Source of the DNA: Betaproteobacteria bacterium
GTDB taxonomy: Bacteria; Pseudomonadota; Gammaproteobacteria; Burkholderiales; Burkholderiaceae_C
DNA length: 36,604 nucleotides
Assembly: GCA_024641925.1 (NCBI GenBank)
Contig: JAHECB010000010.1
Coordinates: forward strand, 1 to 36,604
Reading direction: 5' to 3'
Shown: positions 23,558 through 36,604 of the stretch, in pieces
Layout: every line of letters starts with the position of its first letter
Numbering within the stretch: the first letter of the stretch is position 1
Made by a program: the position numbers and the translations under genes
Notes under the pieces: generated by a model
Database searches by the model: none
What the model saw: only the letters and a program-made list of their open reading frames with translations
What the model was told of the DNA's origin: nothing

Positions 23558-25150
23558 TCAGCGTTGCCCTGCGGCCCGGCGCAGCAGCAGGGTCTTGCGG
23601 GCTCTTTGCTCGTCGCCCGAATCGAGCCACTTGCCGCCGATGCGCTCGGCAACGGCCGCCGGGGCCAAGGCCATCAGCCGTTTGAAGTCTTTTTTCGCCA
23701 GGGCTTCGTCCCCCTTGCCCATCCGGCTCAGCACCAGGCACAGCAGCGGCGGGTAAAACTCCGGCGCTTCGCCCATCGAGGACAACGCGGTGTCGATCGC
23801 CGCTGCATAGTCTTCGGCCGCAAACTGAGCCCACGCCAGCGAATTCAGAAACGACCAGCGCAGCGAATCGCAGGGGCTGAGGCGAAGCGCTTCACGCACG
23901 TGCTCGATGCCCGTCTGCGCCTGCCCCGCAGCGGCTTCATAGTGTCCCAGCAGGCTTAATGTCAGTGCATCGTTGGGGTTGAGCGCGTGGGCGCGGCGCA
24001 GGTCGGCCAGGCCCATCTGGCGCTGCCCCGAATAGATCTGCAACATGGCTTTCCACAAGTGTGCACTGTGGTCCGCGCCGTCGATGGAGATGGCCGTGCG
24101 GGCTGCAGCCAGACCGCGTTCAAGCACCGCTTCAACCGGGTCGGCGCGCCCGGCCCAGATCTGTCGCCAGCACAGATAGGCCAGCGCCACCCAGGCGGAG
24201 CAACATTGGGGGTCGATCGCGATGGCCTGCTCGGCCAGGCGCAGGGCGTCATCGTGTGTCACGCCTCCCGCGTCCTTGTCGGCACGCCGCCCCACGTCGC
24301 GTGCCCGCATGGCCAGCTCGTAGGCGGCCAGGTTGGCGGGGCGCACCGAGCGTGCCCTTTCAAACTCGACCGATTCGATCTGTGGCGCCAAGGCGGTGAC
24401 GATGGCGTGCGCCAGATCGGCCTGCACCGCAAAAACATCTTCCAGGGCACGATCGTATTTTTCAGCCCAGACATGGCCGCCGCTGCGCGCATCGATCAGT
24501 TGCGCCGAGACCCGGATGCGCTGGCCCGCACGTCGGATGCTGCCCTGAACGACATAACGTACACCCAGTTGCTGCGACACCGTGCGCACATCGACGGCCT
24601 GACCCTTGTAGCTGAAGCTGCTGTTGCGCGCGACCACAAACAGGGACCTGAAGCGCGACAGCTCGGTGATGGTGTCCTCGGTCACACCGTCGGTGAAATA
24701 GGCCTGTTCCGGGTCATCGGCCAGGTTGTCGAAGGGCAGTACGGCCACCGAGGGCTTGGCCGGCAAGGCCAGCGCCAGCTCGGCGGGCAGGGGTTGGGCC
24801 ATCTGCGCAGAAGCCAGTTCAGGCGCTGCGCTGGCAGGTTCAGCGACGTCCGCGGTGAAGCGGTAGCCGCGGCCAGGCAGCGTCGTGATCGCTTGCGGGC
24901 CAAGCAACTTGCGCAGCGCGCTGATCTGCACCTGCAGGTTGTTTTCTTCAACCACCAGGCCGGGCCAGACGATGTCCAGCAGTTCGTCTTTGGCCACCGC
25001 GCGGTTGCGATGCTCGATCAGCGCCAGCAGCAGGTCAAAGGCGCGCGCGCCCAGCTTGACCGGCGCCCCATCCAACAGCAGTTCGCGCCGTGGGCCGCTG
25101 AGGGTGTAGCCGTTGAAAGTGATGTCGTCGCCCACACGCGATTCGCTCAT
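23558..25150 (-). CDS. Winged-helix (CadC/OmpR-type) regulator with TolB-like and TPR regions
   Basis: The 530-residue protein begins with a Trans_reg_C winged helix (residues ~10-105: LGARAFDLLLALIEHRNRAV, VVEENNLQVQISALRKLLG, LPGRGYRFTA). A TolB/FlgO-like domain follows at ~133-255 (VAVLPFDNLADDPEQAYFTD, VVQGSIRRAGQRIRVSAQLI), then TPR helices to the C-terminus (ALNPNDALTLSLLGHYEAAA). Unlike CadC it has no membrane segment. This architecture is known in signalling proteins often annotated as adenylate cyclases, but no cyclase domain is present. Start ATG overlaps a 13-codon leader ORF. It probably controls the nucleoside hydrolase gene 10 bases downstream, or neighbours. Confidence 0.85.
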   Translation of the reverse strand: MSESRVGDDITFNGYTLSGPRRELLLDGAPVKLGARAFDLLLALIEHRNRAVAKDELLDIVWPGLVVEENNLQVQISALRKLLGPQAITTLPGRGYRFTADVAEPASAAPELASAQMAQPLPAELALALPAKPSVAVLPFDNLADDPEQAYFTDGVTEDTITELSRFRSLFVVARNSSFSYKGQAVDVRTVSQQLGVRYVVQGSIRRAGQRIRVSAQLIDARSGGHVWAEKYDRALEDVFAVQADLAHAIVTALAPQIESVEFERARSVRPANLAAYELAMRARDVGRRADKDAGGVTHDDALRLAEQAIAIDPQCCSAWVALAYLCWRQIWAGRADPVEAVLERGLAAARTAISIDGADHSAHLWKAMLQIYSGQRQMGLADLRRAHALNPNDALTLSLLGHYEAAAGQAQTGIEHVREALRLSPCDSLRWSFLNSLAWAQFAAEDYAAAIDTALSSMGEAPEFYPPLLCLVLSRMGKGDEALAKKDFKRLMALAPAAVAERIGGKWLDSGDEQRARKTLLLRRAAGQR

Positions 25151-25188
25151 CTTCCGCGACTCCGCAAGCCGCTTTTTTCAGAATGCAT
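25147..25188 (-). CDS. Possible 13-residue leader peptide
   Basis: ATG at 25188-25186 opens MHSEKSGLRSRGR, and its TGA overlaps the ATG of the regulator (ATGA). AAGG lies about 7 bases upstream of the mini-ORF, a usable ribosome site. It could couple or attenuate translation of the regulator. No run of a single regulatory amino acid is seen, so classic attenuation is not supported. The 25151-25232 interval is otherwise AT-richer than its surroundings and probably contains the promoter. Confidence 0.35.
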   Translation of the reverse strand: MHSEKSGLRSRGR

Positions 25189-25232
25189 GGCTGAACCTTG
25201 ATGTTTTTGTCTTCTTGAATATCGGCCTTCTT

Positions 25233-26858
25233 TCAGCGCTGCGGTCGGATCTTGTAGATCGCGTTGTTGCGGTCGGCGCTGAAGTACACGGTGCCGTCGG
25301 CGTGCACGGCCACCCCGGTCACCACATAGGGTGGCGGCAGCCCGGGGCCGGCCTCCAGGCCGATGGGCAGGTTGGCGGCCACGGTGCGGCGCGAGCCGTT
25401 GGCTGGATCGATCTCGGTCAGGCGGCGCGCCGCGGCCTCGGCCACGACAATGCTGCCCCAGGGCGTGAAGGCCAGTCCTTCGGGCAGCGCCAGCTGGTCG
25501 GCCACCACCGTCTTGGTGCCGGTGGCCACGTCGACGCGGAGCAGCCTGCCGCCGGCCTCGGTGACGTACAGCGCGCCGTCCTGGCCGACCACCATCTGCA
25601 CCGGCCCGGCCAGCCCGGTGGCGATGGTGCGGCGCTGCTTGAAGCCGTCGCCGCTGGCCTGGGTGATGGTGCCGGTGGCGATTTCGGCAATGGCGATGCT
25701 GCCGTCGGGCAGGAACTGCGCATCCATGGGCGCCTTCAGCCCATGGATCATCGTGGCGGTTTTCATGTCGGTTCGGTCCAACACCTGCACCGAGCCGGTG
25801 AACCACGATGTGAGCAGGATTTGCTGGGTGGACAGGCCCACCGCAAACGGGTACTCCATGTCGGAAGCCTGCATGCGTTTGATGTCGCGCACCGCGCCGC
25901 TGGCCACATCCACTTTGCGGAAAGCGAAGATGTCGGCCACTCACAAGCTGTTGCCGTCCAGCTTCAGGCCTGCCGGGACGGCCAGCTTGCCCGAGGTGAG
26001 CGTGCGTAGCGCACCCGTGGTGGGGTTGAAGGCCTGCACCGCGTTGTCGGCCATGTTCGACACGTAAATGGTGCCGTCCGGCGCAATGGCCAGGTTGTCC
26101 AGCGCACTGCTCAACTGCTTGACCACGTGCTTGCGACCGGTGGCCAGTTCAACACGGCTCAGCTCGCCGGTCTGGGTGTCCACCACCCACAGGTTGCCCT
26201 TGCCGTCCAGGTTGGCGGCGGCCGCTGTCTTGAATTCGGCGTTGATGACGGTGAGGGCGCCGGTGGCCGGGTCCATCTTGGCCACGCTGCCCTTGAACCA
26301 CAGCGGCCCGTAGAGCATGCTGTCGGGCCCGACTTCAAAGCCGTTGAAGCCTCCCATGTCCTTGGCGATCAGGCGCGGCGGCTTGACGCCGGCCACGTCG
26401 ATCTCCCACATCGCATCGCCCAGGAACACCTGGCTGGCGTAGAGCTGGCCCGTCTTGCGGTCGAAGTCGAGCGAGTTGATGCCCGGCAGGTCCTTGGCCA
26501 GCACACGGATGGGTGCGCTGTCGTTTTCCCGATAACGCACGATGCCTTGCAAGTACGAGGTCCAGGCCAATTCGCCCTTGGGGCCGATGGCGATGTCGTC
26601 GGCCTGGCCTTCGGGCGCGGCGATGAAGACCTTGGCCTCGCCGCTGTTGCGGTCGACCACCCACATGTTGGTGCCCACCACCGAGCCGGCCAGCAACCGG
26701 CCCTGCGTGTCTACGGCCAGGCCGTGCACGCCCGTGAAGGACGATGGCGCCACCAGCACTTCGGGCGCGGCCCAGTGGGCTGGGCGGGTGGGCGTGGTGC
26801 TGCAGGCGGCCAGCAGCAGGCTCAGGCCGAGCGCGGCGGCGATTCGGTAGGGTTGCAT
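25233..26858 (-). pseudogene. Beta-propeller (SMP-30/NHL-like) lipoprotein interrupted by an in-frame TGA
   Basis: The first part (26858-25941, 305 residues) has a lipobox LLLAACSTT (C19) and repeats such as GLAVDTQGRLLAGS, DDIAIGPKGELAWTS and NLAIAPDGTIYVSN, typical of six-bladed propellers of the SMP-30/NHL/Vgb type. It ends LKLDGNSL at TGA (25943-25941). Reading continues in the same frame at GTG 25940 with ADIFAFRKVDV and further blades (GVAVHADGTVYFSADRNNAI) to 25233. The repeat pattern predicts Trp at the stop (NLWVVD elsewhere in the protein), so TGG to TGA is the simplest explanation. The intact form would have 541 residues. Both halves might still be made separately. Confidence 0.8.
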
Positions 26859-26941
26859 GAGTTTCCTCCTGGTGGGTGGGCACAGCGTATCAGGCAGGCT
26901 GCTGGTGTGCGCCGTTGACGGTCAAACGCGGGACAGTCTCT

Positions 26942-28384
26942 TCAAGCCGCCGCCAGGTGGCGCAAGGCGGGCAAGCTGGGCAGGAACAGGTAAGCACCGC
27001 CCCGGGTGCTGACAAAACGCGGCAGACCGCGCAACCGGATCGCACCGCCAGCGGGCAAGGGCAGCTCGAACCAGCTGTCGACCGGGTCGTTGGCGCCCAG
27101 CAGCGGGTCGTTGCTGCCGGTGATGCGCGGGTCTTGCAGGCCCAGGTTGAGCCAGTCGTAGTGCACGGCTTCAAACTGCGCGGCCAGATTGGCGCTGAGG
27201 AAGTGCCCCAGCAGACCGCGCTCGATGCCGTCGTCGGGTTTTGCGGGGTCGTACGCCGGGCCGTAAGGGATGCCCCGGCGCACCAGCCGCCGGGTGTGGT
27301 TGGCCATGCGTTGCACGATGGTGCTGCCGCGTGGGTTGCAGCGCCGCATGTGCGCGCCGTAGGGGCAGCGCGCGCCGTCGTTGTCGTTTTGGTAGTCGAA
27401 GTTGCCCAAGGGCACCGGGTGTGTGGGGTCCATGGTGTCCGGCGCGTCGGGCGACAGGGCCAGCGGCACCCCGTTGCGCCAACGCCCGCACATCTTGGCC
27501 GCCAGCACCTCGCGCAGTGCGTTGTGACGCGTCAGGCCGCTGCGTGCTACCCAGGCGCTGTCAGGGGCCAGCAGTTCGTGGCCTTGCGGATGCGCCAGCA
27601 GTTCGCTGGCAGCATGGTCCAGATAGGCTTCAAAACCGGCCACGTCCTGGGCCAGGACCCGAAAGGCGCTGAAACTGCCGTTGTGGCCCAGCACCGCGGG
27701 CTGGGGCACGGGCCAGAACAGGCCCTCAAAGGCTGTCTTGTGGCCCAGCAGCACGGTGCCCAGCGGCGCCAGGGGCTGGGCGTCGGGGTAGTCAGCCGGG
27801 TCGTGGATGCCGACAAAACGCGGCTGCGAGATGTTGTCGCGGTAGCCGAAATGCACCTGGTCGCCGTTGAAGTTGGCGCCGTCTCGTGCACCCAGCACGC
27901 GCCAGGCCTGGCCGTTGCCGGTCGCCTGCACACGTTGTTGCACGCGGTCCAGGTGGGCACTGTCGTCGGCATGGATGGTGGCCACCACATGCACCAGCGC
28001 GGGGTCGTCAAAAGGCGCCGACCAACGTGACGGTGCGCTGTTGCCGAAGTCGCCCAGCTTCAGCGCGCGCGCCGCCATGCCGTCGGTGAATTCGTCGGGG
28101 AAGCTGGCCATCACCTCGGCCGACACACCCAGCGCCCGAAGTCCCTGGGCCGTGATGCCGATGTTGAAACAATGGTCCGGCTTGACGAGCCAAGGGGCCT
28201 CGGTGGTGATTTGCGGCGCCAGCGTCGTGTCACCCCCGGTGATGGTCCCCAGCCAGGCGCAAGCGGTGGCGCGTTCGGCGACGGCCAGCACCAGATGGCG
28301 CACCTGCTTGTGGCGGTAGCCGCGCAGGATGTTGCCTTGCAGCTGGGCGCGGTCCAGTGCGCCGGTGTTGGCGGCGGCGCTCAC
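26942..28384 (-). CDS. DyP-type haem peroxidase
   Basis: The 480-residue enzyme has the DyP hallmarks: distal G180-Y-R-D183-N (normally GxxDG; the Asp is kept, the last Gly is Asn) in HFGYRDNISQPRF, the proximal haem-ligand H345 in CPYGAHMRRCNPR, and the distal Arg in TRRLVRRGIPYG (369-370). DyPs oxidise dyes and other substrates with hydrogen peroxide. It has no twin-arginine signal, so it is probably cytoplasmic. GTG at 28384 overlaps the TGA of the previous gene. It is the last gene of the coupled operon starting at 32980. Confidence 0.9.
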   Translation of the reverse strand: MSAAANTGALDRAQLQGNILRGYRHKQVRHLVLAVAERATACAWLGTITGGDTTLAPQITTEAPWLVKPDHCFNIGITAQGLRALGVSAEVMASFPDEFTDGMAARALKLGDFGNSAPSRWSAPFDDPALVHVVATIHADDSAHLDRVQQRVQATGNGQAWRVLGARDGANFNGDQVHFGYRDNISQPRFVGIHDPADYPDAQPLAPLGTVLLGHKTAFEGLFWPVPQPAVLGHNGSFSAFRVLAQDVAGFEAYLDHAASELLAHPQGHELLAPDSAWVARSGLTRHNALREVLAAKMCGRWRNGVPLALSPDAPDTMDPTHPVPLGNFDYQNDNDGARCPYGAHMRRCNPRGSTIVQRMANHTRRLVRRGIPYGPAYDPAKPDDGIERGLLGHFLSANLAAQFEAVHYDWLNLGLQDPRITGSNDPLLGANDPVDSWFELPLPAGGAIRLRGLPRFVSTRGGAYLFLPSLPALRHLAAA

Positions 28385-29091
28385 CAGCCCACCCCCAGGC
28401 GTCGGCGAACCTGGCCCACGGCAAACCCCGGGTAGGCGCGGTAGCCACTGCCCAGGGACACATTCGGGTTGGCGTTGAGCTGCAGGATCAAGGCCCGCGG
28501 CAACAACAGCAGATCGTCTTGCGCGGGGTCGGCGTTTTGCTGCGCCAGCAGGTTGGTGGCCAGGTCGGGCGCCTGGTACATGTCGTGCGCATGCACCCAG
28601 TCGATGAAGGCTTCGACGTTGCGCTCCGACGGGATGACACGGTCGCCGTCTTCGATGAGCGCAACGATGGCGTCGAACACGCTGCCGATGGTGGCGATGA
28701 AGTCACGGATGTAGTTGGTGAAGTCGCCGTCGTAGACCGAAAACATGCACAGGTTGTTGCCGACGATGACAAAACGCGCAAAGTGCACGGTGCCCACGTT
28801 GTCCAGGCCGGCGTAAATCTCGTCGGTGTTCTGCGCCACGGCCAGCGCGGCCTTGGCGCGGCCCACGGCCGTCTTGTCTTTCAACGGCATCACCAGGTTC
28901 ATCATGCGCTGCACGTTGTCGCCCACCGCCGTCGCGTCTGGCGGGCCGCCGGGCTGCGGCGCAACAGGCGTGCGCCAGGCCCAGAAGGGCACCAGCACAT
29001 GCCCGGCGATGAACTGGAACAGGCGTGTATCGGGCAGCTTGTCGACCAGCTTGTCGAGCCAGGACTTGGACCGCAGGGGTGCAGCAGGCAT
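28381..29091 (-). CDS. Unknown protein coupled to DyP peroxidase
   Basis: I do not recognise a named family. The 236-residue protein has a basic N-terminus, a hydrophobic stretch FQFIAGHVLVPFWAW (about 26-40), a helix-rich middle, then GTVHFARFVIVGNNLCMFSV and YDGDFTNYIRDFIATIGSVF. The strand-helix alternation resembles a ferredoxin-like or dimeric alpha/beta-barrel half (my inference), a fold also used by DyP proteins. It lies between the catalase-related gene (5 bases after that gene's stop) and dyp (GTGA overlap), so a role with one of the two haem proteins is likely, for example as partner, adaptor or substrate-channelling unit. Confidence 0.65.
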   Translation of the reverse strand: MPAAPLRSKSWLDKLVDKLPDTRLFQFIAGHVLVPFWAWRTPVAPQPGGPPDATAVGDNVQRMMNLVMPLKDKTAVGRAKAALAVAQNTDEIYAGLDNVGTVHFARFVIVGNNLCMFSVYDGDFTNYIRDFIATIGSVFDAIVALIEDGDRVIPSERNVEAFIDWVHAHDMYQAPDLATNLLAQQNADPAQDDLLLLPRALILQLNANPNVSLGSGYRAYPGFAVGQVRRRLGVGW

Positions 29092-29096
29092 GGACT

Positions 29097-30176
29097 TCAG
29101 GCCTCCGGGTTGAAGGGGCAGGCGGTGCCGCCGCGCATCTGGCGCGAGGTTTCGTAGGCGCCGCGCCGGGCCCGCAGGATGGGGTCGTCAGACAGTTCGA
29201 TGCCCGGCAGCAGGCGGCAAGGGTTGAAGCTGATCTTTTCGCACACGGCCTGCTGGTCTTGCGCCACCTGCACCAGGGTGAGTGTGCCCATGACGATGCG
29301 CTGGCGCTTGGCGGGCCAGGGGCGCGTGGGGTCGGCCAGCGCGTCGCCGCGTTCACCAATGGCCATCATCAGCACCATGTCGGCCGGCCATTGCTGCAGG
29401 CGCTGTTGCAGTTCGGCGTTCAAGTAATCGTCCACTGGCGGCGCAGCGGGGTTGGTGGTGGCCACGCCGGCCACGGGCTGCCAGCTGAAGCGCACCGGGC
29501 GGCGCAAGCCATCGGCCCCCAGCACCATGAAGGTGTGCACGGCGTGGAAGCTGGCGCGGGCATAACTGACGGGTGCGCCGATGGTGCCGGCATCAAATAC
29601 GGCCATCTGCGCACTGCGGTGGGCGTTGGCATAGGCCAGGGTACCGGCGGCACCGCTCATCAACTGCCCCGGTGGCGGGTCGGGCGATGGCGGCTTCAGC
29701 TGCAGCATGCCCAGCAGCTTTTGCCAGGCGCTGGGCACGGTCACGGGGGTCTGCCTCGCGGCCTGGCAGAAGGCCAGGAAATCGGCCACCGTGGGGCTGA
29801 AAAAGCTGCCCAGGGTCATGGCGATCAGGTCGGTGGCGGCATCGTCCTTCAGGTGGAAACGGGTGGCCATGCCGCGCACGTCGGACCAGCCGTCGCGCCG
29901 CACCGGGCTGCCCGAGCCGTTTGAAAAACGCACCGTCGCCGGCACCTGGTGGCCCTGAAAGTGTTCGGCCACGCAGAACTGCCGCGCCACGTCTGAAGCC
30001 ACAAAATGCCCCTGCACGCCCACACCCAGCGTGTGCACCGGGCGTGTGCCGGGCGCGTGGTCGGGAAAGTCGGCGATGACGGCGTCGACCAGCTGACGGG
30101 AGATGGCGTCATCCGCGCTGGCGATGGCCGCAGCAGGGCCGGCGTTGGCTTCAAGGTTGGCGGCGGTGCCCTTCAT
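29097..30176 (-). CDS. Catalase-related haem protein
   Basis: The 359-residue protein has a catalase-like core but is far shorter than true catalases. R45-x-x-H48 in RPVHTLGVGVQGHF matches the distal Arg/His block, and VRFSNGSGSPVRRDG matches the VRFS segment. Near the end, DPILRARRGAYETSR places R337 and Y341 as the proximal RxxxY haem ligand. The distal Asn block (DLxxNNTPxFF in catalases) reads DLIAMTLGSFF, with no Asn. Catalase-related proteins such as coral allene oxide synthase act on lipid hydroperoxides, so peroxide disproportionation should not be assumed. No signal peptide. ATG at 30176 overlaps the preceding stop (ATGA). Confidence 0.82.
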   Translation of the reverse strand: MKGTAANLEANAGPAAAIASADDAISRQLVDAVIADFPDHAPGTRPVHTLGVGVQGHFVASDVARQFCVAEHFQGHQVPATVRFSNGSGSPVRRDGWSDVRGMATRFHLKDDAATDLIAMTLGSFFSPTVADFLAFCQAARQTPVTVPSAWQKLLGMLQLKPPSPDPPPGQLMSGAAGTLAYANAHRSAQMAVFDAGTIGAPVSYARASFHAVHTFMVLGADGLRRPVRFSWQPVAGVATTNPAAPPVDDYLNAELQQRLQQWPADMVLMMAIGERGDALADPTRPWPAKRQRIVMGTLTLVQVAQDQQAVCEKISFNPCRLLPGIELSDDPILRARRGAYETSRQMRGGTACPFNPEA

Positions 30177-32980
30177 GCAGGCTCCTTGGGTATCGACGCG
30201 GCGCGGAGGCTTGCCGTTCGCAGCAACGCGCCAGCCATGTCGGACAGATAGGCGCGGGCTGCCGGCAGCCCGAAGCTGCCGCCGTTGGCCAGTGCCAGCT
30301 CGAAACCGGCAGCCGTCATGCGCGCCTTGCAGGTCTCCACCAGTTGCTGGTTCTTGCGCCCGGGTGACACCGGTGAACCGCGCAGCGCAGCGGCCAGGGT
30401 CACGACGGCCTCGTCGGCGCCCAGCTGGGCCAAGGGCAGCAGTGCCGCCTTGAGCGTGGACCAGGCGTAGAAGGTGGCGCCATGGGTAGGAATCTCGCCC
30501 AGCGCCTGCAGGTGGATGGCCAGCGCGTCGGCCGGCGGCGCAGCAGCGGCCTGCAATTCGGCGATGAAGTGTTTGACACGCTGGGCGCCCAGCGTATTGC
30601 CGGCCATCAACGCCCATTCGACCGAGATCTGGTACTCGGCAATGGCCTGTTGCGGGTTGTCAAAGCTCAGCACACGACCCCGCGCGTAGTGCACGTAGCC
30701 CAGCAGGGTCGGTTGGGTGACGTGCTGCCCGAGTTGGGAAACCTCCTGTGCGAGCGCCGCGGCGCCCGCCACATCGCCGACACGCGCGGTGACATAAGAC
30801 GCCATGCACAACGACGTCACCTCACAAGCCGTGTTGCCGGCGGCGCGGGCCTGCGCCGCCGAAGTCCGCAGGTGCTTCAGGCACTTGGCCGTGTCCTTGG
30901 ACCACTGCGCGATCTGCCCGGCCACGCCTTCGAGCCAGCCCGCGCTGGACGCGTAGCCCGCGGCTTCGGCCTGGAGACCGGCGGCGACGAAGTTTTCGGC
31001 GGCCTGACTGTCGCCATCGGCATGGAAGGCATGCACGGCCGCCGCTGCCAGCAGCATGGCTTGCTGCGGCAAGGTGTGTGCACCCGGCTGGGCCATCACA
31101 CGCTGCGGCCAGAAGGCGGTTTCGGCGCCGCGCTGGGCGTAATTGAACAGAAAAAGCGCTGCGGCGATGTCGGCGGCCAGCGGCAGGTCGCGTGTCAGGG
31201 CTCGTTCAAAGGCTGCGCGCAGGTTGGCAAGTTCGTCGAAGATGCCCTGGACGGCCTTTGACTCCTGATCGGTGGCGACCCGGGCGCCCAGCTCGCGGCA
31301 GCGGGCCGCAAACACCTGGCCATGGCGGTTTTCCACCGTTTGCAGCTGCCCTGCCTGGGCCAGCTTTTCGCGCCCGAACGCCTGCACCGTCTGCAGCATG
31401 CGGAACAACCGCGGCGAGCCCGGGTCGCGAGACAGCAGCGACGATTCGACCAATTCGTCGATGCCCGCCAACACGGCTGACGCGCTGCCGATGCCGGCCG
31501 CCTTGTCGCCCGCCCCGTCGACCATGCACAAGGCCAGCGCCTGTTTTTCATGGAAAGGCCCCGAAAACACGGCCAGGCGTTCCAGGATGCGGCGGCTGGC
31601 CGGATCCAGCAGCTCATAGGACCAGTCCAGTGTCTGGCGCAGCGTCTGCTGGCGACCTGCGCGACGCTGCAAGCGGCTGGTGCCCAGGTCCAGCGGGTTG
31701 GTGACGCCGGCGGCAATGTCGGCCACGGTCAGCCGGCGCAGATGGCCGGCCGCGATCTCGATGGCCAGCGGCAGGTGTTCGAGGTGGGCACAGATGCGAT
31801 CGATCGTGGACAGCTCTTCATCCGTGGCGTGGAAGCCGTGGTTCACCAGTCGCGCCCGTGCCACGAACAGGCGCACGGCGGCGGATTCGCCGGGGGCGGC
31901 GCGCGACTCTGCACCGGTGCCCCTGCGACCCAAACCGCACAGCGGCGACACCTCAAAAAGCGCCTCGCCATCCACGCCCAAGGTGCGTCGACTGGTGTTG
32001 ATGATGAACAGCGTGGGGCAGAGCTGCCCCAGGTCCGGCACGGCATCGGCGATCGGGTCGAGTACATGCTCGCAGTTGTCCAGCAGCAGGATGGCCCTTG
32101 CGCCTTGCAGCCGTTCCAGCACCTGCACGCGGGGTTGCATGCCGGGCTGGGGTTCGATCAGCAGGCTGGCGGCGATGGCGGGCCAGACATCCGCGCCGCG
32201 CTCCAGCGCTGACAGGTCGACAAACCAGGCGCCATCCGGAAATGATGACTCCAGTGAACGCGCAAATTCAACCGCCAGCCTTGTCTTGCCGATGCCGCCA
32301 GGGCCGATCAAGGTGAGCACACGCGACTCATGGGTCATGGCCACCAGCGCTTCGATCTCGGCTTCCCGGCCAAAAAAAGCATTCAGCGTGGCCGGCAGGT
32401 TGCCGGTGGCCGTTTCGCGTTTGCCACCGATGGGCGGGAAGGCCTGCGGCAGGCCTGGCATGTTGAGTTGCAGCACCCGGATCGGGTCGATGCCCTTGAA
32501 ATGGTGTTCACCCAGGTCGGTCAAGGCCAGCTTAGCGGCTTGCAGTTCGGGCGCCAGCAAGGCGGCGGTAGCGGCCGAGACCAGCACCTGATCCGCATGT
32601 GCCGCATTGCCCAGCCGCGTCACCAAGGGCATGGCGGGGCCGAACCAGTCGCTGCCGCGAGGGCGCGCCAGGCCCGTGTGGATGCCGGCGCGGATCAGCA
32701 GCCGCCCTGTGGGCCCCCAGGCCGTAGCACGCAGGCTGTGCGTGGCATCGATGATGGCCCGCACGGCGTCCAGGGGCCGGTCGAAGCCGGCATAGAGGCC
32801 GTCTCCTGTGTTCTTGAAGGGGTCGCCGTGGTGGCGTCGGATGGCAGCCTGCAGCAGTTGGTCGTGCAAATCCATCGCGCCCAGCATGTCGCCCGGGAAT
32901 TGGCGGTGCAGGGCTGTACTGCCGACGACGTCTGTAACGAGGAAGGTGCGTTCGATACTGCTTGCGGCGTTGTCCAACAT
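30173..32980 (-). CDS. Cyclase-like / STAND ATPase / TPR regulator
   Basis: The 935-residue protein has three modules. Residues ~11-170 form a class III nucleotide cyclase-like domain: FLVTDVVGST (metal Asp D17), FKNTGDGLYAGF (K56, D60) and WFGPAMPLVTRLGNAAH, where Pro118 replaces the usual Asn, and R122 is kept. Residues ~200-450 form a STAND/NB-ARC-type ATPase with Walker A LIGPGGIGKT (K232) and Walker B AILLLDN (D301). The rest is helical TPR-like repeat. This architecture is known in large bacterial regulators, usually sensing and signalling. It is the first of four tightly coupled genes. Start ATG at 32980 is preceded by a weak AGG-type ribosome site. Confidence 0.88.
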   Translation of the reverse strand: MLDNAASSIERTFLVTDVVGSTALHRQFPGDMLGAMDLHDQLLQAAIRRHHGDPFKNTGDGLYAGFDRPLDAVRAIIDATHSLRATAWGPTGRLLIRAGIHTGLARPRGSDWFGPAMPLVTRLGNAAHADQVLVSAATAALLAPELQAAKLALTDLGEHHFKGIDPIRVLQLNMPGLPQAFPPIGGKRETATGNLPATLNAFFGREAEIEALVAMTHESRVLTLIGPGGIGKTRLAVEFARSLESSFPDGAWFVDLSALERGADVWPAIAASLLIEPQPGMQPRVQVLERLQGARAILLLDNCEHVLDPIADAVPDLGQLCPTLFIINTSRRTLGVDGEALFEVSPLCGLGRRGTGAESRAAPGESAAVRLFVARARLVNHGFHATDEELSTIDRICAHLEHLPLAIEIAAGHLRRLTVADIAAGVTNPLDLGTSRLQRRAGRQQTLRQTLDWSYELLDPASRRILERLAVFSGPFHEKQALALCMVDGAGDKAAGIGSASAVLAGIDELVESSLLSRDPGSPRLFRMLQTVQAFGREKLAQAGQLQTVENRHGQVFAARCRELGARVATDQESKAVQGIFDELANLRAAFERALTRDLPLAADIAAALFLFNYAQRGAETAFWPQRVMAQPGAHTLPQQAMLLAAAAVHAFHADGDSQAAENFVAAGLQAEAAGYASSAGWLEGVAGQIAQWSKDTAKCLKHLRTSAAQARAAGNTACEVTSLCMASYVTARVGDVAGAAALAQEVSQLGQHVTQPTLLGYVHYARGRVLSFDNPQQAIAEYQISVEWALMAGNTLGAQRVKHFIAELQAAAAPPADALAIHLQALGEIPTHGATFYAWSTLKAALLPLAQLGADEAVVTLAAALRGSPVSPGRKNQQLVETCKARMTAAGFELALANGGSFGLPAARAYLSDMAGALLRTASLRAASIPKEPA

Positions 32981-33134
32981 CTGCAGCCTACGCGCCGATC
33001 GGCGATGTCAACGACGGCGTAGTTTGCAACAGTGACGCTGATGGCGCCAGTGCTATTGAGGAAAGTGTGCGCAGTTCAGGCTCAGCTTGCGCCCTGATCA
33101 GACTGGATCCACCGGTCGATGACCACGACCCCGC

Positions 33135-33152
33135 CGACCGTCATTGCGGTCG
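33135..33152. repeat. 6-bp inverted repeat after the ABC ATPase gene
   Basis: CGACCG (33135-33140) and CGGTCG (33147-33152) form a perfect stem with loop TCATTG, 19 bases past the stop of the minus-strand ATPase gene. There is no U-run, so terminator function is uncertain. The rest of 32981-33170 shows a TTGACA-like hexamer on the minus strand (33011-33006) with no convincing -10. Confidence 0.35.
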
Positions 33153-33170
33153 CGGCCCGACCATGCACTG

Positions 33171-34883
33171 TCAGCGCACGGGCGTTGCCAAAGCTGCCGC
33201 GCTGTAGCCCTTGGGAATCGCGGCCAGCAGCCGCTTGGTGTAGTCCTCACGCGGTGCGGCCAGGATCTGTGCGGCGCTGGCCTGTTCCACCACCACGCCG
33301 TCTTTCATCACCAGCACCTCGTCGCTGATGAAACGCACCACCGCCAGATCGTGGCTGATGAAGACGTAACTCAGGCCAAATTCGTCCTGCAAGTCTTTCA
33401 GCAGGTTCAGCACCTGGGCCTGCACCGACACGTCCAGCGCCGACACGGCTTCGTCCAGCACCAGCACCTCGGGGTTCAGGGTCAGGCAGCGCGCAATGGC
33501 CACGCGCTGGCGCTGGCCGCCGCTGAATTCATGCGGGTACTTGCCGAAGGCGCGGCCGTCGAGGCCCACTTTTTCGAGCAGTGCGCGGGCGCGTTGTTCG
33601 CGGTCGGCCGTGCTGTTGCCGATGCCGTGGATGACCATGGGCTCCAGCAGTGTCTGGCCGATGGTGAAGCGCGGGTTCAGGCTGGCGTACGGGTTCTGGA
33701 ACACGATCTGGATGCGCCGGCGCATCACCTGGCGCTCGGCGGCGCTGATCTTCAGCAGGTTCTTGCCGTCGAACATCACCTCGCCGGCCTCGGGCCCGCC
33801 GTTGGGTTCGTGCAGGCGCAGCAGGGCCAGGCCCATGGTGGTCTTGCCGGAACCCGATTCACCCACCACGCCCAGTGTGTGGCCCTTGCGCAGCTGGAAG
33901 TTCACGTTCTGCACGGCCTTGAATTCGCGCCGGCCGAACACGCCCTTTTTCAGCCAGAAGCTCTTGGCCAGCGCACGCACTTCCAGCACCACCGGCGCGT
34001 TGGGGTCCTTGGTCTTGGCCAGGCCGGCCGCGGCCGTGCTGCTGACACCGCCTTGTGAAGCGGCGATGTGGTCGTCGATGACCATCAAACGCGCCGGGTT
34101 GCCCTCCAGGCTGGGCCGGCAGGCCAGCAGCGCCTTGGTGTAGGCGTCCTGTGGTCGTTCAAAGATGTCGGCGGCCGGGCCTTGTTCGCGGATGGTGCCG
34201 CCGCGCATCACCACCACGCGGTCGGCAATTTCGCCCACCAGGCCCAGGTCGTGGCTGATGAACAGCACACTCATGCGGTGTTCGGTCTTCAGCTTGCCCA
34301 GCAGTTCCAGGATCTGTCGCTGGATGGTCACGTCCAGCGCCGTGGTGGGCTCGTCGGCAATCAGGAGCTTGGGTTCGCAAGCCAGCGCCATGGCAATCAT
34401 CACGCGCTGCTGTTGGCCACCGGACATCTCGTGAGGGTAGCTCTTCAGTCGGCGTGTGGGTTCAGGAATGCCCACTTCGTGCAGCAGTTCTTCGGCACGC
34501 TTCAACGCGGCGGACCGGGACAGTCCCAGGTGTTTCATCAGCGGTTCACACAGCTGCTGGCCCACGTCAAACACCGGGTTCAGCGAACTCATGGGGTCCT
34601 GGAACACACAGGCAATTTCGCGCCCGCGCATGGCCTGCAAGTCCGCCAGGCTGGCCTGCAGCAGGTTTTTGCCCTGCCACAGGATGCGGCCTTCACGCAC
34701 GGCGTTTTCAGGCAGCAGGTTCAGCACGCTCATGGCGGTGACACTTTTGCCCGAGCCCGATTCACCCACCAGCGCCACGGTGGTGTTTTCAGGGATGTCG
34801 AAGCTGACGCCCTTGACGGCTTCGGCCAGCACGCCCTGGCCCATGCGGAAGGACACTTTCAGGTCTTGAATACTCAGCAGCAT
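33171..34883 (-). CDS. Double ABC ATPase of a peptide/nickel-type transporter (DppD-DppF fusion)
   Basis: The 570-residue protein contains two complete ATPase units: Walker A GESGSGKS, signature MSGGQQQRV and Walker [13 protein letters not shown] in the first; [18 protein letters not shown] and [11 protein letters not shown] in the second. Two-in-one ATPases of this type (GsiA, YejF) serve Dpp/Opp-class importers of peptides, glutathione or nickel complexes. ATG at 34883 follows the permease stop by 4 bases (34884-34887); the frame upstream is not used. The periplasmic binding protein is not in the window, so substrate is unknown. Confidence 0.93.
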
Positions 34884-34887
34884 GGTC

Positions 34888-35946
34888 TTATTCCAATCCA
34901 CGCAGTTTGGGGTCCAGCGCATCGCGCAGCGCATCGGCCATCAGTGAAAACGCGGTCACGAACACCGCCATGAACAGGGTGGCGGCCACCAGTTGCCACC
35001 AGTGGCCCAGGATCAGCTCACTCTGCGCCTCGGCCAGCATGGTGCCCCAGCTCACCTGGTCTACCCGCACCCCCAGGCCCAGGTAGGACAGGATGACCTC
35101 GCTCTTGATGAAGCCCACGGTCAGCAGACCCAGCCGCACCAGCATCACGTGGCTGACGTTGGGCAGGATGTGCCGAAACATGCGGCTGGCGTTGCTGGCG
35201 CCGATGGCCTCGGCGGCGCGCACGTATTCGCGGCTGCGGTGTTTGATGAATTCGGCGCGCACCTGGCGGTACATGCCGGTCCAGCCGGTCAGGGCCAGGA
35301 TGATGACCACGCTTTGCACCCCGCGCCCGGCCACCGCTGCAAAGGCAAAGATCAGCAGGATGTTGGGGATGGATTCAAAGACGTTGTAGACCCACTCCAG
35401 CAGGTCGCCCACCTTGCCGCCGAAATAGCCGCCAAAGGCGCCCAGCAGCGTGCCCAGAATGGTGGCGCACAGCGCAGCGGCCACGCCCACAAACACACTG
35501 ATCTCGGTGCCCTTGACGGCCTTTTGCAGCACATCACGGCCCAGGCGGTCGCCGCCGAAGGGCAGGGTGTCAGCCTTCACGGTTTCGGTGGTCTGGAACG
35601 CCTTGGCACGTTCGGCCCACTCCTTGTAGCGCGGCGCTAGCGGGTCGATGTCGCTCAGGTCCACGTTGGGGCCTTTGGGGCCTTCGATGGCACTTTGCGC
35701 CTCGGGCGGCGCCGGGCCCAGGAAGGTGGGCGGTGCGTTGGGTACCCCCACTTCGTCCTGCCAGTTCTTGGCCACCAGGCCGGTGGCCGACAAGACGATC
35801 AGCAGCAGGAAGCCCGCCACCACCCACAAGGACACCAGGCCCACGCGGTCGGACCTGAAGCGGCGCCACGCGGCCGCCCAGACACCTTCGCTCTTTTGCA
35901 GCGCGCTGCCGCCAGCGCTGTCGGCTGAGATCACGGCTGTATTCAT
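34888..35946 (-). CDS. DppC/OppC-type ABC permease
   Basis: The 352-residue membrane protein has an N-terminal cytoplasmic segment, one membrane helix (about 36-58) and a long periplasmic stretch (about 60-140, with a Pro-rich part) before the conserved permease core. The coupling loop AAEAIGASNASRMFRHILPN marks the Dpp/Opp permease C family, and the end MADALRDALDPKLRG is standard. The long first loop resembles YejE-type subunits. ATG at 35946 overlaps the stop of permease B (ATGA, 35943-35946). Confidence 0.92.
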   Translation of the reverse strand: MNTAVISADSAGGSALQKSEGVWAAAWRRFRSDRVGLVSLWVVAGFLLLIVLSATGLVAKNWQDEVGVPNAPPTFLGPAPPEAQSAIEGPKGPNVDLSDIDPLAPRYKEWAERAKAFQTTETVKADTLPFGGDRLGRDVLQKAVKGTEISVFVGVAAALCATILGTLLGAFGGYFGGKVGDLLEWVYNVFESIPNILLIFAFAAVAGRGVQSVVIILALTGWTGMYRQVRAEFIKHRSREYVRAAEAIGASNASRMFRHILPNVSHVMLVRLGLLTVGFIKSEVILSYLGLGVRVDQVSWGTMLAEAQSELILGHWWQLVAATLFMAVFVTAFSLMADALRDALDPKLRGLE

Positions 35947-36604
35947 TTCAGCACCACGCGGGGGTCGGCGAACTTGTAGGCCACGTCGGTCAGCAGGTTG
36001 ATGAACATGGTCAAAACGGCCAGGTAGATGGTCACCGCCTGGATGACCGGGAAATCACTGCGGTTCACGGCCAGCAGCACCTCGCGGCCAATGCCGGGGA
36101 TGCTGAAAAACACCTCGATCAGGAAGCTGCCCACAAAGATGCCGGGCAGCTGCAGGCCGATGTTGGTCAGGATGGGGATCATGGCGTTGCGCAGCACGTG
36201 GCGGAACAGCACCACCCGTTCGGTCATGCCCTTGGCGCGCGCGGTGCGCACGTAGTCCTGGCCCAGTTCGTCCAGCAGGAAGGTGCGGTACAGGCGGGTT
36301 TGGGGCGCCAGGCCCACCATCACCGCCAGCAGCACCGGCAGCGGGGCGTAGGTGATCAGGTTGTTCCAGACGCTGTCGCTCCAGCCCTGCACTGGAAACC
36401 AGCCCAGCTGGAAGCCGAAAACGTACTGCCCGATGATCACGTAGACCAGGAAACTGATCGAGAGTGCAACGGTGGTCACCACCATGATGGCGCGGTCGGT
36501 CAGGCTGCCGCGGCGGTAGGCCACCCACATCGCGATCGGCAGGGCCAGCAGCACGTCCAGGATCAGGATGGGGATCATCACCGTCAGCGTGGCCGGCAGG
36601 CGCG
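35943..36604 (-). CDS. DppB/OppB-type ABC permease (5' end outside window)
   Basis: The frame is open to the right edge of the window, so about 220 C-terminal residues are present (stop at 35943). The coupling loop is TARAKGMTERVVLFRHVLRN, followed by NIGLQLPGIFVGSFLIEVFF and the family ending DVAYKFADPRV. Together with the C permease and the double ATPase it completes a peptide-type importer; the binding protein probably lies further right. Confidence 0.93.
   Translation of the reverse strand, partial: RLPATLTVMIPILILDVLLALPIAMWVAYRRGSLTDRAIMVVTTVALSISFLVYVIIGQYVFGFQLGWFPVQGWSDSVWNNLITYAPLPVLLAVMVGLAPQTRLYRTFLLDELGQDYVRTARAKGMTERVVLFRHVLRNAMIPILTNIGLQLPGIFVGSFLIEVFFSIPGIGREVLLAVNRSDFPVIQAVTIYLAVLTMFINLLTDVAYKFADPRVVLK

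Follow-up and report, generated by a model that had tools for sequence, protein, structure and literature searches.

The present study concerns four neighbouring genes on the minus strand of a 36,604-nucleotide stretch of DNA from a Betaproteobacteria bacterium (contig JAHECB010000010.1, positions 1 to 36,604; hereafter the window). They encode a large STAND-type NTPase (STAND), a catalase-related haem protein (CAT), a protein of an unnamed family (MID) and a DyP-type peroxidase (DYP). We find that CAT, MID and DYP make up a rare and patchily distributed cassette, which is inherited as a block. Judging from the sequences, there is about an even chance that this cassette is one regulated two-haem module that processes organic, perhaps fatty-acid, hydroperoxides. 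No description of the three genes as a set was found in the Creative Commons-licensed PMC literature searched.

A short-pattern scan seeded with MID, which reaches close relatives only, was run on 84,980 species, each represented by one genome. It returned 30 loci with a MID identity of 56-74%, the close ones mostly from Bradyrhizobium. In 27 of the 30, CAT, MID and DYP are encoded on one strand, in an unchanged order and with conserved spacing. The other three (L022, L033 and L034) are cut by contig ends and are consistent with this order; L022 and L034 belong to one metagenome-assembled genome (MAG). Four further distinct triads were found outside these 30 loci. The 33-row tree discussed below leaves out L033 (CAT-MID, cut) and L034 (the end of MID plus DYP, the other half of the MAG of L022), and L092 and L093, which by their length are the same contigs as L009 and L031, were not counted a second time. 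The same order is seen in records of Acidiphilium, Sphingomonas, Ruegeria, Hellea and Roseiarcus and, over two contigs, in a Granulosicoccaceae MAG; an Acidimicrobiia MAG carries CAT-MID, matching the order as far as its contig extends. The flanking genes differ between triad loci; Iso_dh and SpoU, which flank the triad at L008, are housekeeping genes.

Because the scan was seeded with MID, a reciprocal test was run from the CAT side. In 15 triad genomes, the best CAT match was the triad's own (523-625 bits), and the next best reached at most 103 bits. Among 146 genomes of the Bradyrhizobium group (the genus of G930, which holds the Bradyrhizobium hereditatis locus L012), a strong MID match occurred in 17 and a strong CAT match in the same 17, at adjoining coordinates (the CAT match of G1027 being in two pieces). 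One more of the 146 had a weak CAT match (130 bits) and another weak MID matches only, both of the remote type described below. Across 300 genomes of the window's order, the close form was present in the window's own genome only, with weak partial matches in three. In 289 genomes of another class (around G468), no close MID was found; there was one remote MID match, in G468 itself, and CAT gave two matches only, of 124 and 132 bits.

The sequence-only reading of the window had proposed a coupled system of all four genes, against which scattered homologues would speak. Such scatter was not observed for CAT, MID and DYP: the order holds in 27/30 loci and the co-occurrence in 17/17 genomes, and for these three the observation is stronger than had been stated. 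Two haem proteins with an unknown partner do stand beside a large NTPase, but STAND is not a fixed member of the set, being upstream in 9/33 triads, and for this gene the observation is weaker.

CAT, MID and DYP proteins

CAT (29097..30176, minus strand; an open reading frame, ORF, of 359 amino acids) matches the Pfam family PF00199 with 99.9 bits (cut-off 25; E 2e-28). Among the triad CATs, R45 and H48 are kept in 32/32 readable rows and R337 and Y341 in 33/33. The position of the distal Asn (148 in human catalase) is M in 15 and T in 17 of 32 readable rows and never N; it is Met in the window CAT, and I in L033. The CAT of L014 is split over two frames and is represented by its best piece only, which leaves one gap among the 33 CAT rows. 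This alignment bears out the sequence-only reading, which had named the same four residues and the missing Asn. Compared with monofunctional catalases, CAT has the Catalase domain, the distal His and the proximal Arg/Tyr and lacks the distal Asn. The short catalase core, in which the distal His and the proximal Tyr are present, is shared with hydroperoxide-metabolising catalase-related proteins. Its closest PDB relative by sequence is 3e4w (E 1e-38; PDB name 'putative uncharacterized protein'), which we take to be the 33-kDa catalase-related peroxidase of M. avium paratuberculosis. The short catalase core is common to both, whereas the distal Asn position aligns with Gln in 3e4w.

DYP (26942..28384, minus strand; ORF, 480 amino acids) matches PF21105 with 33.4 bits (cut-off 27.5; E 6e-8) and TIGR01413 with 79.9 bits, below the cut-off of 100.5. 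D183, R366 and H345, presumably the catalytic Asp, distal Arg and proximal His of DyP, are invariant in 32 aligned DyPs (fusions included) and in 32 triad sequences. With these residues, DYP is like the DyP peroxidases of PDB 8re2/8re3 and 2d3q and is recognisable by sequence. The motif GYRDN had been read correctly: its Asp is kept in 32/32 triads, and its last residue is N in 27 and S in 5. This final residue therefore marks the triad DYPs as a subfamily, GxxD[N/S], distinct from other DyPs. The full GxxDG motif is absent from triad DYPs, and its G is retained in many remote MID-linked DyPs. The identity of the window DYP is 54-65% to triad DYPs and 27-43% to the DyPs of remote MID loci. To our knowledge, the physiological role of DyP peroxidases is widely seen as unclear.

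MID (28381..29091, minus strand; ORF, 236 amino acids) has nothing in Pfam at E 0.1, no NCBIfam match and no match among PDB sequences better than E 8.4. Its structural model predicts two N-terminal helices (11-40) followed by a ferredoxin-like/ABM-type core (about 59-174), and the model suggests a possible similarity of fold to ABM/polyketide-tailoring proteins. H103, R106, Y120, D121 and G122 are invariant across 33 triads, and the N-terminal helical stretch is rich in aromatic residues. Homology of MID to the halves of DyP was considered and rejected; since profile comparison gave a probability of 0.4 over 14 columns, we claim a likeness to DyP at the level of fold only.

Plain peroxide defence would explain such a set with CAT and DYP as scavengers of both hydrogen peroxide and organic peroxides under oxidative stress, MID as a helper and the STAND/cyclase protein as a stress regulator. 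Both haem families commonly use peroxide, and their catalytic residues are largely intact. Besides, neither a lipoxygenase (LOX; the positive control of this search was silent too) nor an An_peroxidase was found in the window genome. On the other side, a strong form in just 17 of 146 Bradyrhizobium-group genomes is odd for a housekeeping defence, and the replacement of the catalase-family gene by a P450 in remote loci is odd for a scavenger. The distal Asn is also missing from 32/32 CATs. This last loss proves little, because in coral AOS the corresponding Asn is described as unimportant for catalysis per se (PMC5617202, in excerpt); the title of a paper cited in the same excerpt has Asn mutations in AOS and human catalase altering the rate and not the essential chemistry. 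Overall, we regard peroxide defence as a rather unlikely explanation.

Remote MID-DyP loci and the second haem protein

In 31/31 remote loci, the MID domain lies at most 1.3 kb from a DyP domain or is fused to it, the latter in 8. A catalase-family partner occurs in 10/31, before MID in L057, L058 and L078, which have a divergent catalase-MID-DyP order, and after DyP in L059, L060, L061, L064, L086, L087 and L107. The remote catalase assignment is a homology chain: L058 alone exceeds the PF00199 cut-off, and sequence searches connect the other partners to L003/L058. A P450 partner occurs in 13/31, fused in L062, L063 and L066-L069 and separate in L070, L072-L076 and L108. The P450 is uncertain in L110 (about 3 kb off, on the other strand) and L112 (a weak match), and six loci (L035, L065, L071, L077, L109 and L111) show no catalase-family or P450 partner. 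None of the fetched stretches of the 31 loci holds a catalase-family gene and a P450 together. By analogy with oxylipin enzymes, the best reading is that catalase-related and P450 proteins would share one slot.

O2-activating P450s typically carry an acidic I-helix residue and a neighbouring threonine. In the 10 of the 13 P450s that were aligned, the I-helix reads GFVPT, GFAPT, GFIPT, GGPPQ, GAIPT or TGGAT; all 10 have V, A, I, P or G at the acid position and P or A at the alcohol position, with ExxR and the Cys loop kept. Membership of CYP74 was rejected, the top-ranked PDB entries listed for three of the P450s being bacterial P450s.

The genes might be chance neighbours, kept together through shared descent alone, and the preponderance of Bradyrhizobium among the close loci would agree with this. 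Such an account is already contradicted by the MID-DyP fusions in 8 loci, by the divergent order of L057, L058 and L078 and by the recurrence of the cassette in clades from Acidiphilium to the Granulosicoccaceae and Acidimicrobiia MAGs (CAT-MID in the last); we give it hardly any credence.

Several remote loci have further features. L062, L063 and L066-L069 encode single proteins of about 1,410-1,540 amino acids that combine a P450, at least one MID-like and a DyP domain (e.g., L066:5859-10226). At L064:3182-11387, a catalase-family gene and an alpha-dioxygenase-like An_peroxidase gene precede a double MID and a DyP-catalase fusion of ~900 amino acids; the closest relatives in PDB of this animal-haem-peroxidase protein (1007 amino acids) are fatty-acid alpha-dioxygenases. 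At L065:4891-6279, a RoxA-like cytochrome c (a Pfam name, linked to rubber oxygenase) adjoins a MID-DyP pair. On a Gloeothece plasmid (L035:1-11200), the neighbours of MID-DyP are a linear amide hydrolase and genes of the PatA/PatG, TOMM-binding and SagB kinds. GMC oxidoreductases are found near L060 and L061.

Natural-product tailoring is a further explanation: the haem enzymes, together with the ABM-like protein, would carry out oxidations on a peptide or a specialised metabolite, under the control of pathway-specific regulators. It draws on the resemblance of the MID model to ABM/polyketide-tailoring proteins, on the TOMM/cyanobactin genes adjoining MID-DyP in Gloeothece, on the GMC oxidoreductases and on the LuxR-type STAND regulator of L107. 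However, no core biosynthetic gene recurs beside the triads, whose flanks vary and include the housekeeping genes of L008, and the ORFs listed for the two short gaps that border the window operon include none that looks like a precursor. In our estimate, tailoring is rather unlikely.

Organic hydroperoxides as candidate substrates

The sequence-only reading had suggested organic or lipid hydroperoxides rather than hydrogen peroxide as substrates. We prefer organic hydroperoxides mainly because P450s without the O2-activating pair substitute for the catalase-family partner. The alpha-dioxygenase-like gene of L064 points in the same direction, and the suggestion keeps its conditional standing. 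Several observations weigh against it. The window genome yielded neither an An_peroxidase nor, with the silent control mentioned above, a lipoxygenase. The catalase-family partners of L060, L061 and L064 keep the proximal Arg/Tyr motif and have no distal His. Furthermore, the GMC oxidases, RoxA-like cytochrome and TOMM genes near some loci fit a tailoring role equally well.

In a hydroperoxide-processing module, MID, with its ABM-like fold and aromatic-rich N-terminal helical stretch, would dock on the DyP and assist the binding or presentation of an apolar substrate at the surface of a membrane or of lipid. One haem protein would make or consume an organic hydroperoxide, and the other would rearrange or reduce it. 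Specifically, CAT may be a catalase-related hydroperoxide isomerase, lyase or peroxidase, like coral cAOS/cHPL or the Nostoc catalase-related lyase, with DyP as its peroxidase or oxidase partner. The neighbouring gene product (a cyclase-like STAND, TIR-TPR or LuxR-type STAND protein) would be the switch that turns the module on. This mechanism is a reasoned hypothesis, which we hold to be about as probable as improbable. In a bolder version, which we consider doubtful, MID-DyP would be a hitherto unrecognised haem oxygenase unit that fills the 'dioxygenase' position. It would generate organic or lipid hydroperoxides, and an exchangeable catalase-related or non-monooxygenase P450 partner would convert these to signal molecules, all switched by STAND, cyclase or TIR sensors.

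Excerpts of the literature describe haem enzymes that act next to a dioxygenase and rearrange fatty-acid hydroperoxides; they are catalase-related proteins and special P450s (PMC5617202, PMC11719350, PMC13049297, PMC9579011). Examples are the cAOS-LOX and cHPL-LOX fusions of corals and the catalase-LOX fusions of Acaryochloris and Anabaena (PMC5617202, PMC11719350, both in excerpt). As far as these excerpts go, CAT and cAOS/cHPL are both haem proteins built on the catalase core, with the distal His and the proximal Tyr in place, and both are linked to another oxidative enzyme, in some cases by fusion. In contrast to cAOS/cHPL, the partner of CAT is DyP plus MID and not a lipoxygenase, its distal Asn position is M or T, and the residue preceding its distal His is V/I/A, where cAOS has Thr. 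A similar tandem of a catalase-related haem protein with a second haem enzyme is the linoleate 10S-dioxygenase and catalase-related 10S-hydroperoxide lyase of Nostoc punctiforme (Brash 2014, as cited in the excerpts of PMC13049297 and PMC9579011); that dioxygenase is cyclooxygenase-like, whereas the partner here is a DyP. The P450-MID-DyP fusions seem to be the bacterial equivalent of the fungal dioxygenase-P450 fusions, in which a haem peroxidase-type domain is joined to a P450 (PMC13049297, in excerpt). According to the same excerpted sources, the peroxidase part of the fungal fusions is cyclooxygenase-like, and the P450 is C-terminal in the fungal DOX described (PMC9579011); in the bacterial proteins, the peroxidase part is DyP-type and the P450 N-terminal.

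If the bolder version were true, the MID-DyP module would be a bacterial counterpart, built from unrelated parts, of the coral catalase-lipoxygenase and fungal dioxygenase-P450 oxylipin synthases. The unnamed family MID gains a defined partner, DyP, and the interchange of catalase-family and P450 proteins beside one MID-DyP pair opens the role of these DyPs to direct tests. The interchange also suggests oxylipin-like chemistry in ordinary soil bacteria.

Signalling neighbours and the window operon

STAND (30173..32980, minus strand; ORF, 935 amino acids) has a class III cyclase-like N-terminus, an AAA/NB-ARC-type NTPase and a long C-terminal half. It matches AAA_22 with 27.5 bits (cut-off 27), and NB-ARC (22.9) and AAA_16 (30.2) under their cut-offs of 23.5 and 32.6; it has the features of a P-loop STAND/NB-ARC-type NTPase. 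Its Guanylate_cyc match is below threshold (15.3 vs 21.9 bits). At what we take to be the class III cyclase catalytic positions, the two metal Asp and the Lys are present and the transition-state Asn is replaced by Pro, leaving the catalytic set incomplete; this Asn is retained in some neighbour cyclase genes, e.g., those of L027 and L066. Given the replacement, a sensor function is likelier for the N-terminus of the window STAND than efficient cyclase activity.

The 33 distinct triads differ in their neighbour. In 9 of them, the window included, a co-directional cyclase-AAA gene lies upstream; in 18, a cyclase-AAA gene follows immediately downstream in convergent orientation. A TIR-TPR gene occupies the downstream position in 3, and no such neighbour was found in the other 3. 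A STAND homologue is upstream in 8/32 other triad loci. On the concatenated-triad tree, these neighbour states require four changes, and no smaller number would do. There is a single clade for each of the convergent B type, the convergent C type, the TIR type and the 'none' type, and the upstream type makes up the rest. Contig ends cut the L015 and L024 regulators, which were assigned via their sequence cluster; this cluster covers 22/30 loci. In a background sample of 12 genomes, the 8 from Bradyrhizobium (7.0-11.7 Mb) have 26-69 matches each to the cyclase domain PF00211, i.e., ~3-6 per Mb; therefore, the expectation for 10 kb is about 0.05.

Similar neighbours accompany the remote MID-DyP loci. 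L062, L063, L066 and L068 have a cyclase-TPR gene and a convergent CRP-family gene; L067 and L069 have TPR genes with a SARP-like start judged by eye (Pfam gives TPR only for L069); L072 and L073 have cyclase-AAA genes; and L107, from an actinobacterial genome, has a divergent AAA-LuxR STAND gene beside MID-DyP-catalase. The recurring element is thus a signalling or STAND-type neighbour and not a single gene family. The label TolB-like reflects a sub-threshold match only.

Such STAND, TIR and cyclase neighbours recall immune-like systems, in which these proteins would sense an invader and the haem enzymes would be the effectors. The PADLOC models for TIR and PycC match the regulators of L025 and L012, respectively, yet none of the four window proteins was matched in PADLOC, and cyclase-domain proteins are ordinary in Bradyrhizobium, as the counts above indicate. 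A defence role is very unlikely. A link to ribosomally synthesised and post-translationally modified peptides (RiPP/TOMM) was also rejected: TIGR03903 scores 463 bits on the L012 regulator, under its cut-off of 706, which we read as a shared cyclase-AAA architecture.

Two further features adjoin the regulators. A conserved protein of 605-678 amino acids lies beside the TIR-TPR gene in three Sphingomonadales-type loci (L011:8226-10244, L025:12173-14206 and L032:12205-14020); its L011 copy has no Pfam match. In Bradyrhizobium loci, a degenerate catalase-family sequence that is nearest to the L061/L064 type lies directly upstream of the convergent cyclase-AAA gene, at L017:13421-13798 and in the same position in L012, L013, L018-L021, L026, L030, L089 and L091. 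It looks like what is left of a second cassette that has disappeared from this site.

In the window, the four minus-strand genes and their junctions are all present as the sequence-only reading described them. The STAND stop and CAT start overlap in ATGA (30173..30176), a gap of 5 bases (29092..29096) separates the CAT stop (TGA) from the MID start (ATG), and the MID stop and DYP start overlap in GTGA (28381..28384), all as read from the minus strand. From this spacing alone, we infer that STAND-CAT-MID-DYP may be co-transcribed. No RNA element reached its gathering score within 24000-36604, and prediction gave 1 promoter and 8 terminators, with shuffled means of 0.6 and 6.5. Recent transfer was considered from base composition, which is uninformative (operon GC content 0.65-0.69, window 0.67), and a phage origin was set aside, MID having no match in the phage collection. 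Next to the operon, 25233-26858 holds two ORFs for SMP-30/ScyE-like propellers. They abut at 25940/25941, and each matches a different end of the same model, so they are possibly one split gene; they have no match in other triad loci. Beyond them (23558-25150) lies a gene for a CadC-like winged-helix protein with a TPR part. Over the region from residue ~106-135 to residue 397, this protein shares 31-34% identity with the TIR-TPR proteins of L011, L025 and L032.
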